A stretch of DNA of 20,396 bases from an uncultured bacterium (GTDB taxonomy: Bacteria > DRYD01), in NCBI GenBank assembly GCA_937139605.1, contig CAKZQG010000012.1, positions 1 to 20,396 on the forward strand. The letters are read 5' to 3'. Shown piece by piece: positions 4,122 through 14,126 of this stretch. Made by a program: the position numbers and the translations under genes. Positions within the stretch are counted from its first letter, which is position 1. Every line of letters begins with the position of its first letter. The notes under the pieces are model-generated. The model was not told the origin of the DNA. It ran no database searches and worked only from the letters and a program-made list of their open reading frames with translations.

Positions 4122-4697
4122 TTATTGGCTGCCTAAAAACATTAAAACTCCAAATATAGAATTCATACAAGATAAACCCAGCATAATAAAAGAAATCCCA
4201 ATCCCAACACCATTAATAATTTTATCAGTTTGTTCTTGGGATTTAACAAATCCAAAAATACCTACAGCTAAACCAATAAATGAAAAAAATATTCCACATA
4301 TAGCTAATATATTAGCAGGGCAAGCAATAATACCTAATCCAATAGAAGAAAACCCCAAAATTTTAGGTAAATTATCAGTAGTAGAAGTGGTAGAAGTAGT
4401 AGAAGTAGGATAATTAACATTGGGATTTACTGGGTTTTGCTGATAACTTTGTGGGGGTACTTGATAAGGGGGTTGCTGTATTTGATACTGTTGTTGATAA
4501 GGCGTTTGTTGATTAGCTCCTTGATATGGCGGTACTTGATACCCTTGATCATAATTACGAGAAGATAAATCCTGATAAGAAGGATTATAAGATTGATAAC
4601 TACTTTGAGTATAACTTTGTTTTAAATCAGCACCACAAAATGGACAAACATTAGCATCCTCTGGTACAAAATTCCCACATTTTATACACTTATTCAT
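4122..4697 (-). CDS. Zinc-ribbon protein with Tyr/Gln/Pro-rich linker and C-terminal membrane helices (DUF4190-like)
   Basis: Three parts are visible in 191 residues. A zinc ribbon at the N-terminus has CxxC pairs at 4/7 and 18/21. A low-complexity linker of about 80 residues is rich in Tyr, Gln, Pro, Ser and Asn, with recurrent PPYQ and YQ units and an STTSTTSTT stretch. The C-terminal 80 residues form three hydrophobic helices of the DUF4190 type, including the FFSFIGLAVGIFGF glycine-rich pair. Such proteins are common and mostly uncharacterised. The Thr/Ser stretch is coded by three 9-bp DNA repeats at 4381-4407, so length could vary in frame. An AAGGAG sequence lies just before the ATG with unusually short spacing. 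Function is unknown. Confidence 0.8.
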   Translation of the reverse strand: MNKCIKCGNFVPEDANVCPFCGADLKQSYTQSSYQSYNPSYQDLSSRNYDQGYQVPPYQGANQQTPYQQQYQIQQPPYQVPPQSYQQNPVNPNVNYPTSTTSTTSTTDNLPKILGFSSIGLGIIACPANILAICGIFFSFIGLAVGIFGFVKSQEQTDKIINGVGIGISFIMLGLSCMNSIFGVLMFLGSQ

Positions 4698-4740
4698 TAC
4701 TCCTTAACCCCCCATAATTATTTATACTATATTATTTATA

Positions 4741-6168
4741 CTATTTCCAAATAGAACTAACATCAAATTGTAAATACTTAATATTTATATTCTTATCAAT
4801 TTTAAAGGTATTATCTTGAGAATCTTTAGAATAAACTAACTTAGTATTCATAAATAAATCATAAGATTCTAAATTAGGATACTTAGAAACTCTAAGATAG
4901 TATTTTAATATATTATAATCTTTTAATTTTTTGTTTTTATATAATTCATCAATAAAATTATCTACTTTAAAAACAGCGTAATCTTCTAAGGTATCAGTAT
5001 TAACTACATTAACAGCAAAATCAATGTATCTTGAATTGTTATTTAAAACAAATAAATTTCTCAATCTATTAAAGTAACTATATGAATCCTTAGCTAATAA
5101 ATCTTCTAAATTAATAATTTTAGTTAAATTTAAACTATTAGGATCTAATAGAACTAAAAATACATTAGAAGTATCTTTATTTCTACTATCAATAAATAAA
5201 ATAAGCTTATCATTATCTAAAATATAATTTAAATAATAATCATCATTAAGAGTACCCAAAGCTAAAGATCTCAAAATTTTCATAGATTTTAAATCAATTA
5301 AATTAATTAAAACATTTTCTTTTTCATGAGGCTTAAAAGATCTAGTTTGAGAAACAAGAATCAATTTATCTTTATATAAAATAGAATCTTTGATATTTTC
5401 ATCAAAAGCTCCCCCTAACCCAAAAGCCCTAATAAAATTAAAATTACCATCTAATATAGAAAAATAAATATCTTTATTACCAGTAGCCTTCAAATAATTC
5501 CCTAATAATAAATATTTATTTAAAGATAATTTTATTAAATTATAAGGTTTATCCTCAGAATTAGTACCAATTAAGTGTATGTTATCTGCATTAAAATTAC
5601 TATCTAATTTTATAATTAAAGAATTTTCTTTACCAAAAGTAGCACTTCTAGTAGAAGATAAAATAAAAGGAGTATTATCAACAAATACGATATTAGATAC
5701 ATCTTCTTGCCTACTACCACTTATAACATAATAATCTATTAAATTTAAATTTTCATCTAAAACAGAAACAAGAATATCTTCTAATGTATCTTGACTATAA
5801 CTCCAAGTATTACCTACAGCTAATAGATAATTATTAAATTTTTTAACACTAACCAAACTATCATTGAATAACCCACTTAAAACTGAAGCATTAGCTTCAT
5901 AATCATTGTTAGTTTCATTAACTTTAACAAAAAGAAAATCACTACCATTTTGAGTAAAGCTCTTAGTATCTCCATAAAATAAATATTCATTATTATTTAC
6001 CTGAATAACCCCTTTTAAATCGTCAATAGAAGAAGCCTGTAGAACTTTCTTATTCTTTATTTCATAATCTAGTTTATAATTTTTAACAGCATATCCAATA
6101 CTTAAAAATAAACTTAAATAAAAAACAGCAAATGATAAAATGAAAAAAATATATTTAATATAATTCAT
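4741..6168 (-). CDS. Membrane-anchored extracytoplasmic protein, probable beta-propeller repeats
   Basis: I do not recognise a named family. The 475-residue protein has one N-terminal hydrophobic helix (about 5-28) and then a long soluble part with no further helix, so it is probably exported and anchored. Within it, stretches of roughly 50 residues recur with a shared flavour: a G-x-T/S-x-S-like turn (GDTKSF, GNTWSY, SSTRSA), then two acidic or glycine positions, then a strand such as LIIKLDSNFNADNI. This resembles the repeat seen in large secreted beta-propeller proteins that read out as 'G.T.S.G..D..v.kld.nG'. There are no cysteines in the soluble part. AGGAGGGG sits eight bases before the ATG, the strongest ribosome site in this block. 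A lipoprotein box is not seen. Confidence 0.72.
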   Translation of the reverse strand: MNYIKYIFFILSFAVFYLSLFLSIGYAVKNYKLDYEIKNKKVLQASSIDDLKGVIQVNNNEYLFYGDTKSFTQNGSDFLFVKVNETNNDYEANASVLSGLFNDSLVSVKKFNNYLLAVGNTWSYSQDTLEDILVSVLDENLNLIDYYVISGSRQEDVSNIVFVDNTPFILSSTRSATFGKENSLIIKLDSNFNADNIHLIGTNSEDKPYNLIKLSLNKYLLLGNYLKATGNKDIYFSILDGNFNFIRAFGLGGAFDENIKDSILYKDKLILVSQTRSFKPHEKENVLINLIDLKSMKILRSLALGTLNDDYYLNYILDNDKLILFIDSRNKDTSNVFLVLLDPNSLNLTKIINLEDLLAKDSYSYFNRLRNLFVLNNNSRYIDFAVNVVNTDTLEDYAVFKVDNFIDELYKNKKLKDYNILKYYLRVSKYPNLESYDLFMNTKLVYSKDSQDNTFKIDKNINIKYLQFDVSSIWK

Positions 6169-6202: not shown

Positions 6203-6982
6203 TTATTTTTTATTATGTTTTATAAATTTTTTATAATAAAATTGTACGATAAAAGAGGCTACGTCAGATGGAGTAGTACCTGGCCCAAAGCCCGCATCAT
6301 AACCTAACTCTTTTGCTAACCTATGATCTATTCTACTACCTCCACATATAACAATAACTTTATCCCTAATTCCTTCAGCTTCCAATATATCAACTAGCTC
6401 TGTTAAATTCCTAATATGCATATTCTTTTGGGTAATAGTTTGTGAAACCAATATAACATCTGCATTTAGTTCTTTAACTTTTTGTACTAAAACAGCAGGT
6501 ATAACTTGCGGTCCTAAATTATATACTTTAAAAACTTTATAAGCTTCTAATCCTTTTTCTCCTTTAAATCCTTTGATATTTAATATACTATCCAACCCTA
6601 CAGTATGGCTATCAGTACCAATAGTTGCACCTATTATTATTAGTTTCCTTTTAATATAGTTATTAACAAAATTTTCTACCTCATCTTTTGACATTTTATC
6701 ATATTCTGGAATAATTGGTTTTATATTATCTATATCAACTTCGTAAGAAGTAGCTGCATAAACTACAAAGAAATAAAAATACTCTAAAGGTTCTTCAACA
6801 GTAGCTATTTTTATTTCTTTAAATCCCATTTTACTTAATAAAACTTTCGCAGCTTCTATTGCTATATATTTATCTTTAGCAGGAATAGTAAAACTCAATT
6901 GAACTATTCCATCATTAAAAGTATCCCCATAAGGCCTTATATACCTATTATTTAATAATTCTTTTATATCTACACCCTTCAT
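6203..6982 (-). CDS. kamE: Lysine 5,6-aminomutase beta subunit (cobalamin-binding)
   Basis: This 259-residue protein matches KamE, the adenosylcobalamin-binding subunit of the enzyme that moves the terminal amino group of beta-lysine or D-lysine during anaerobic lysine fermentation. The DxHxxG cobalamin-binding motif appears as DSHTVG, with the cobalt-ligating His at 126. LNIKG places Lys137 where the family's PLP Schiff-base lysine sits (Lys144 in the clostridial protein, by remembered alignment). LLSKMGF near the start, VSQTITQKN and CGGSRI further on, and GYDAGFGPG near the end are also family hallmarks. The alpha subunit (kamD) and the other lysine-fermentation genes are not in the window, so the gene is split from its partner here. 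A related ornithine 4,5-aminomutase subunit is much longer. Confidence 0.93.
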   Translation of the reverse strand: MKGVDIKELLNNRYIRPYGDTFNDGIVQLSFTIPAKDKYIAIEAAKVLLSKMGFKEIKIATVEEPLEYFYFFVVYAATSYEVDIDNIKPIIPEYDKMSKDEVENFVNNYIKRKLIIIGATIGTDSHTVGLDSILNIKGFKGEKGLEAYKVFKVYNLGPQVIPAVLVQKVKELNADVILVSQTITQKNMHIRNLTELVDILEAEGIRDKVIVICGGSRIDHRLAKELGYDAGFGPGTTPSDVASFIVQFYYKKFIKHNKK

Positions 6983-11774: not shown

Positions 11775-12758
11775 TTATTTTTTAACTAAGTTTATTATAT
11801 TGATTATATTTTTTAATTTATTATCCATAATGTTTCTAGGCAATAAATATGGAATAAAATCAATAGTTAAAATAAGATTATTTATATTAACATAATTGCT
11901 AATTTTATTAAAAAATTCAATAATTTTTTGATCATTTTCTATTAAAGATGATTCAGTAGAGATTACCCCAGCTAATAATTTTTTATTTTCTAATTTTTTA
12001 AAATCAATTTCATTTAGATTATTTCTATAAAAATTAACAGATATTCCTAAAACTTCTAATGAAAATATCTCATTAATAACTTTATTTAAATTAGAATAAG
12101 TAAAATAAAATATTTTAAAATTCTCTTTATTTATTTCATCAATTAATTTTACTAATAGATTATAATTTTCTTTAAATAGATTATAATCATTAGGATAAAG
12201 GAAATCAAGGTATTCAACTAAAGTAATTATAATGTTTTCATTATTAAATTTAGAATCATTTAAATAATTTTTTAAATTTTTAATTAATTCTATTAAAACC
12301 AAGATAATTTGTTCGAAATTTAAATTAGAATATTTATAGAAAGTAAAAATAGATGGTAATGTAATATTTATATTACTTAAACCTTTTAGATAATTTAAAA
12401 TATAATTTAAATTAAAATATTGATTAAATAATATTTCAAAGTTATTATAATTAAAATCAAAAGAAGATATTTCTAGTTTTCTCCAGAATGTATTAGTTTC
12501 TTCAAATCTGAGTAAAGTATTAGCTAATGAATTTTTTAAAATTAAAGTAAATGGCCTTAACAGATCTTTAAATTTAAACATTCCAGTAGAATAATAAGAA
12601 AAATTCAAATTATTTTGTAAATTAAGGAAATCAGATAGATCTTTATCAAAATATTTTTCTAACTCTTTTTCTGTTATTCTATTTCTATCAAAATCTCTTG
12701 TTTTTTTAATTAACTCTTCACTTCTAGGATATAAAGAAGGGATAACAATATTATTCAT
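11775..12758 (-). CDS. MetE-like TIM-barrel protein lacking the zinc ligands
   Basis: The first 100 residues clearly match the catalytic-domain family of cobalamin-independent methionine synthase and its archaeal-type relatives: SLYPRSEELIKKTRDFDR (8-25), an S-T-G-M-F-K-F-K-D-L-LRPF block (57-70) and RFEETNTFWRK (84-94). At 327 residues it has the length of one such barrel. The family binds zinc through a His-x-Cys, a Glu and a later Cys. Here the His-x-Cys region reads KIFYFTYSN (215-223) and the late Cys region reads TIDFIPYLLPR, and the whole protein contains no His and no Cys. Zinc-dependent thiol methylation therefore looks impossible. The reading frame is intact, with AGGAG seven bases before the ATG, so it is probably a repurposed or regulatory paralogue rather than a pseudogene. 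Its Asn/Ile/Leu-rich late half has diverged most. Confidence 0.74.
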   Translation of the reverse strand: MNNIVIPSLYPRSEELIKKTRDFDRNRITEKELEKYFDKDLSDFLNLQNNLNFSYYSTGMFKFKDLLRPFTLILKNSLANTLLRFEETNTFWRKLEISSFDFNYNNFEILFNQYFNLNYILNYLKGLSNINITLPSIFTFYKYSNLNFEQIILVLIELIKNLKNYLNDSKFNNENIIITLVEYLDFLYPNDYNLFKENYNLLVKLIDEINKENFKIFYFTYSNLNKVINEIFSLEVLGISVNFYRNNLNEIDFKKLENKKLLAGVISTESSLIENDQKIIEFFNKISNYVNINNLILTIDFIPYLLPRNIMDNKLKNIINIINLVKK

Positions 12759-12794
12759 TATTATACTCCTATTTTAATGTAATATTTTATTTTA

Positions 12795-14126
12795 TTATAT
12801 AGTATTTTGAGCTGGTAGATTTTCTTTAGTTTGTAAATCTTTTACATATTTTACCTTAATTTTTTTATAAACTTCTTCTTTTAATTTTTTAAGAGTAATA
12901 AAATATATTAATCTTTGAGTTATTAAGTTTTGATCTAGCTTTAATTGAGATAATTCCATAACAAACCTTTGAGTTTCTACATCATTTTTTAAATAATATT
13001 CTATCTCTAAATTATCAACATTTATATTATATTTTCTTATGAGATTATTAAGGATAATAGATCTTTTGATATTATCTTTAGCAATATTTTCTACTTGTTT
13101 ATTAAATTCTTCCTCAGTTTGATTAACTGATTTAAGATAATCTTGTAAGGTTCTATTCTGGTTTTTGAGAATCATTAGGAAATTATTTTTTTGATTTTCA
13201 ATTTCTTTTTTAAGCATAGTTTCAGGTAATTCAAAATCAATTTTATCTTTTAAATAACTTAAAAACCTATTAAAAACTAAATCTTTTTTAAGATTCTCTA
13301 TATCTTGACTTACAACTTTATCTAAATCACTTTTTAATTCTTCAACAGAATTATAATTAACTAATTTAATTAATTCTTCATCAGTAGGTAATAATTTTTC
13401 AAAAACATTATTAACTTTGATTTTTATTTTAAGGGTTCTATTTTTAAGGAGTTCTATATTATCAGGCCCGGGGATAGTGAATTCTTTTTCTTCTTCTTTT
13501 TTCATTCCAAGAATATTCTCGAATAATCCAGGTAGTAATAATTCTTTTTTAGCGATAACAGAATAAACTTTATTATCTCCCCCAGAAAGTAATTCATTAG
13601 TATTAGCATCTCTAATTTCAAAAATAATATCAGCTCTATTACCTTCTTTTATCCCTTCATTACTTTCAACAAACTTAACATATTGTTCTTTTATATATTC
13701 CATCCTTTTATTTAATTCTTCCTCTTTATTTATATCAATTTCATTTACTTCTAATTCTATGTTATCATCTATTTCAATAACAGGTTCAATTTCTAAAGTT
13801 ATTTCATATTCAATTTTTTCATAATTTGCATTCTTTAATTTTATATTCAAAATAGATATTACATTAAAATTAAAAGAGGATAATAAGTCTTTAATAGATT
13901 GATTAACTGCTTCTTCAACTACTTTTTGGAAAATATATCCCTGTCCTAATTTATTTTCTATTATATTAAAAGGGACTTTCCCTTTTCTAAAGCCAGGAAC
14001 TACAAAATCTTTTTGAATTTCTCTCATTATTTTAGAATAGATTTCATCTATAAAATCTTTATCTAATTCGATGTCTAACATTTTTATAGTTTGAGTTCTA
14101 TTTTGTTCATTTAAAATTTTAGGCAC
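12795..14126 (-). CDS. tig: Trigger factor, ribosome-bound folding chaperone
   Basis: Trigger factor meets nascent chains at the ribosome exit. The N-terminal ribosome-binding signature GFRKGKVP is at 45-52. A PPIase (FKBP-like) domain follows at about 156-240, and the remainder is the long helical C-terminal chaperone part, for 443 residues in total, a normal length. Translation starts at GTG: an AGGAGG sequence lies eight bases before it. clpP and clpX, the common downstream partners, are absent; instead a MetE-like gene follows after 36 bp. Acidic and Lys-rich helices with few aromatic residues fit the family. Confidence 0.96.
   Translation of the reverse strand: MPKILNEQNRTQTIKMLDIELDKDFIDEIYSKIMREIQKDFVVPGFRKGKVPFNIIENKLGQGYIFQKVVEEAVNQSIKDLLSSFNFNVISILNIKLKNANYEKIEYEITLEIEPVIEIDDNIELEVNEIDINKEEELNKRMEYIKEQYVKFVESNEGIKEGNRADIIFEIRDANTNELLSGGDNKVYSVIAKKELLLPGLFENILGMKKEEEKEFTIPGPDNIELLKNRTLKIKIKVNNVFEKLLPTDEELIKLVNYNSVEELKSDLDKVVSQDIENLKKDLVFNRFLSYLKDKIDFELPETMLKKEIENQKNNFLMILKNQNRTLQDYLKSVNQTEEEFNKQVENIAKDNIKRSIILNNLIRKYNINVDNLEIEYYLKNDVETQRFVMELSQLKLDQNLITQRLIYFITLKKLKEEVYKKIKVKYVKDLQTKENLPAQNTI

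Follow-up and report, generated by a model that had tools for sequence, protein, structure and literature searches.

In the fused methionine synthase MetE, the N-terminal barrel arose by duplication, and its zinc and homocysteine sites were obliterated (Pejchal and Ludwig, 2004, PMC539065). This barrel faces the catalytic barrel and forms the folate cleft with it, and its residues Arg15, Lys18 and Lys104 touch the folate, but the same work cautions against the name “folate-binding domain”, as the other barrel supplies most of the contacts to folate (PMC539065). A split MetE, in which the two halves are separate genes, was reported in 2021, for the most part from archaea but also from Sulfobacillus, and in Pyrolobus the two genes are unlinked (Price et al., PMC7857596). 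The detection criterion in that study was a PF08267 score above the cut-off, which was stated to miss divergent members (PMC7857596).

The pair of proteins described here resembles the archaeal split MetE (Pyrococcus furiosus PF1268/PF1269, Pyrolobus fumarii; PMC7857596) in that an N-terminal-like and a catalytic protein are separate, that a divergent N half is not easily recognized, and that, as in Pyrolobus, the genes are not linked. Compared by description, it differs in being bacterial (Calescibacteriota, Anaerolineales and others), in having an N half that stays under the Pfam cut-off, and in that both halves constitute their own subtype in the tree. In the literature that was searched, we found no mention of a split MetE in this bacterial lineage.

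The gene at 11775-12758 and its zinc-free protein

The window, i.e. the whole analyzed stretch of 20,396 nucleotides from an uncultured bacterium, probably of the Calescibacteriota, carries a MetE-family open reading frame on the minus strand (11775-12758; 327 aa, ATG start, bounded by stop codons at both ends). An AGGAG ribosome-binding site can be read from the sequence 7 nt upstream of the ATG (12759..12772, minus strand), and same-strand neighbors, which encode a SufU-like protein and trigger factor, lie at 22 and 36 bp. A sequence-only reading had described an intact MetE-family gene with a good ribosome site and a product devoid of histidine and cysteine, and this holds: the open reading frame, the residue count (no His and no Cys in 327 aa) and the NCBIfam matches (PRK06438, 4.8e-14; PRK04326, 9e-11; TIGR01371, 1.7e-5) agree with it. 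The size is that of a stand-alone half (≤400 aa). Elsewhere in the window, positions 6203-6982 encode a B12-binding protein, the beta subunit of lysine 5,6-aminomutase (NF052385, 335 bits), with no alpha subunit among the neighboring open reading frames, and the product of 4122-4697 combines a zinc-ribbon-like CxxC...CxxC motif at its N terminus with hydrophobic segments and a stretch rich in Q, Y and P.

That the protein lacks His and Cys is largely a matter of composition and by itself weak evidence, because both residues together make up only 1.2% of the other proteins of this window of 23% GC, so that their absence from 327 aa has a chance probability of about 0.02, and because the adjacent trigger factor (12795-14126, 443 aa) contains neither residue as well. 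Orthologues of the window protein have 0-3 His and 0-1 Cys.

More informative are the positions of the zinc ligands. In an alignment that may be off by one or two residues around these sites, the His, Cys, Glu and late Cys of the catalytic barrel are replaced by F217, F219, N242 and F301, in line with the earlier observation that the ligand sites are substituted. A zinc site built from shifted His or Cys residues is ruled out, as the protein contains neither. All five known Calescibacteriota copies lack the ligands, and the loss is identical in every aligned homologue. The MesA-MesD core synthases are single-barrel MetE relatives like the window protein, but their zinc site (H-x-C, E/D, C) is missing in the latter.

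Missing ligands would also be expected of a decaying pseudogene copy of MetE. However, the frame is open in five of five genomes, dN/dS among orthologues is 0.08-0.27, many columns are invariant among the five orthologues, and the uniform ligand loss in all aligned homologues likewise does not fit decay. The gene is conserved and under purifying selection, and the pseudogene explanation, which we reject on conservation, has next to no chance of being correct.

A close known counterpart is the N barrel of Thermotoga maritima MetE (1t7l; PMC539065), in which the zinc and homocysteine sites have also changed to aromatic and other residues. The position of its Lys104 remains basic in the window protein and its relatives (R84 in all), and this is the only basic residue kept among Arg15, Lys18 and Lys104: the folate-tail residues Arg15 and Lys18 have Glu and Ile as their counterparts, and His111 has Phe. 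The window protein thus differs from the T. maritima barrel in being encoded by a separate gene and in the loss of Cys309 (the late Cys), Arg15, Lys18 and His111.

A catalytic half elsewhere in the genome

The window gene occurs in five of seven Calescibacteriota genomes, with the other four copies being 40-69% identical to that of the window, and each of these five genomes encodes exactly one MetE catalytic-domain protein (372-383 aa), always on a different contig. In the genome of the window, where no second MetE catalytic domain was found, this partner is a 381-aa protein encoded on contig C38 (G000:C38:26168-27127; L001:1477-2619, minus strand) with the zinc ligands H255, C257, E281 and C352, which are invariant in eight partner orthologues. 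Both genes are missing in the two remaining genomes, which are the least complete ones (71 and 73%), and the MetH homocysteine domain was not found in any of the seven. If, as is most likely, the window protein is the helper of this zinc-bearing half, its own lack of zinc residues is to be expected. The two genes are unlinked in all five genomes; adjacency of split-MetE genes is usual but not required, as unlinked pairs are already documented by Price et al. (PMC7857596).

Could the catalytic protein be a lone core methionine synthase of the MesA-D type, which receives its methyl group from a corrinoid or another donor and has nothing to do with the window protein? Core synthases that lack an N half do exist (PMC7857596), and the model of the catalytic half finds its best structural match in MesD (3rpd, Z 32.8), with MetE C barrels scoring about equally. 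On the other hand, the partner corresponds to the C-terminal barrel in solved structures of MetE and scores best with PRK01207/PRK04326 (234-261 bits), while PRK09121 reaches only 78-80 bits, and it co-occurs with the N half and adjoins it in other bacteria. The corrinoid protein CdhD was searched for in the genomes and not found, on which ground the corrinoid-fed variant is rejected, and we regard a lone core synthase as very improbable altogether.

As to the methyl donor, all the genomes have FolD, and four of the five genomes with the pair encode a divergent, only marginally recognizable MetF-like protein. In the genome of the window this is a 331-aa protein (L023 952-1947, on G000:C28) with a marginal MTHFR (MetF) match of 22 bits, and similar matches occur in three of the four others; perhaps it is a very divergent MetF that feeds the split MetE. 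The presence of FolD, the marginal MetF-like protein and the lack of CdhD fit a folate donor, which is compatibility and not proof.

Genomic context, profiles and trees

Searches with the window protein itself gave little. The MetE match in the Pfam scan was below threshold and the cut-off of PF08267 (Meth_synt_1) was not reached, phmmer with the single protein against PDB sequences had no match, a five-sequence profile gave only marginal MetE matches mixed with chance ones, and neither a scan of viral contigs (no relatives) nor a PHROGs search (nothing useful) helped. The PF08267 cut-off is a detection threshold that misses divergent members (Price et al.), and the protein was therefore placed by homology and synteny.

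A DNA scan detected homologues in four Anaerolineales genomes, with E values from 6e-21 to 2e-27 and, over their best segment, 25-26% identity. In three of them (L013, L014, L015), the window-type gene is immediately followed by the gene of a catalytic half that is 55-57% identical to the C38 protein. In the fourth assembly (L012), no catalytic partner was found; there, a transposase-like frame (4645-6052) starts 66 bp downstream of the zinc-free half, at the position of the catalytic half in the sister genomes, and is followed by the end of the contig. Among 151 Anaerolineales genomes, a strong homologue (>390 bits) is present in four, and three of these four have a strong partner (>700 bits), which occurs in none of the 147 genomes without a strong homologue. 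The arrangement extends further: a scan of 386 bacterial genomes revealed 20 stand-alone zinc-free MetE halves, with a catalytic half directly alongside in 16 of the 20 loci, from about ten families, two of these 16 being truncated where the contig ends. Outside the group, the nearest relative (L067) adjoins the same type of partner (568 bits). Four zinc-free halves (L068, L069, L076, L081; three from one family) have no catalytic half within 1.5 kb and are possibly unlinked pairs. The zinc-free half of L086 has an H-x-C.

The Anaerolineales homologues are also those that connect the window protein to known MetE halves. PF08267 is passed in all four genomes with a homologue, and the two proteins that were scanned reach 44-45 bits (cut-off 27) with no PF01717 match. 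A profile of nine homologues has MetE chains as top PDB matches, and its best-matching stretch lies in the N barrel (1t7l 126-331), whereas the profile made from the partner matches the C barrel (458-763). In hhalign, the family profile gave 98.3% against the MetE N half (E 2e-13) and 74% against the C half (E 4e-6). The Calescibacteriota proteins alone have weak and about equal scores with both halves, and hhalign with these sequences alone aligned them to neither. The assignment of the window protein to the N half leans on the Anaerolineales intermediates.

Trees of 31 and 56 sequences, in which long branches meet and composition is skewed, separate the zinc-free halves from the catalytic halves with support of 100/99 and 100/100. 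Fused or split, the catalytic halves form one group (100/100) that includes no zinc-free half, and the subgroup of window-type zinc-free halves on one side of the tree is mirrored by a subgroup of their partners on the other. Family profile and tree thus place the window protein closer to the N half of MetE than to its catalytic half, and it is the N-terminal half, not the catalytic one used by the sequence-only reading, that is the right comparison. The structure model (pLDDT 88) is a MetE-type barrel with Z 24-25 to MetE barrels, and these Z values tie between N and C barrels, so that the fold alone does not separate them.

The proposed split methionine synthase

From homology, profiles, synteny and tree, the product of 11775..12758 (minus strand) is most probably the N-terminal-barrel half of a split MetE, i.e. 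its folate-side, zinc-free subunit, with the catalytic half encoded elsewhere in the genome. An alternative is that a former split-MetE subunit has acquired a new function, such as that of a regulator or of a sensor of folate or an amino acid, which is close to the binding, regulatory or sensing role that had been suggested from the sequence. The long and divergent Calescibacteriota branch, the loss of Arg15/Lys18 and His111 and the lack of linkage to the partner would suit such a change, but the protein has no extra domain, it co-occurs one-to-one with a single catalytic half in genomes in which MetH was not found, and the partner's subtype adjoins this N half in other bacteria. We therefore consider a new job improbable. 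A conserved group of ligand-free homologues does exist, as the earlier reading had envisaged, but it is a split-MetE subunit; what stands of that reading is that the protein is not itself a zinc enzyme and likely has a role on the folate side, while the novel sensing or regulatory job is not supported, in view of synteny, co-occurrence, profiles and tree.

As half of a split MetE, the window protein would contribute the non-catalytic (beta-alpha)8 barrel to an enzyme encoded by two genes. It would dock face to face with the zinc/homocysteine barrel of the C38 protein, and this docking would close a cleft for 5-methyl-tetrahydrofolate, to which the window barrel may add some contacts. The catalytic subunit would then be able to transfer the methyl group of this folate to homocysteine bound to zinc. 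Complex formation, folate as methyl donor and activity of the pair are all inferred here. It is conceivable, though rather doubtful, that the Calescibacteriota pair is a distinct subtype that has lost the folate-tail contacts and uses another methyl carrier or another geometry.

Only a modest part is new, namely a bacterial subtype of split MetE with divergent sequence and unlinked genes; otherwise, the window protein is an ordinary subunit of a known enzyme type. The useful result is a correct annotation, by which an apparent zinc-free oddity turns into a recognizable enzyme subunit. A divergent split-MetE half can escape standard Pfam annotation in bacteria, and the split MetE, reported mainly from archaea, is present in many bacterial families. 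For the uncultured phylum to which the window belongs, the pair would fill the missing methionine-synthase step.
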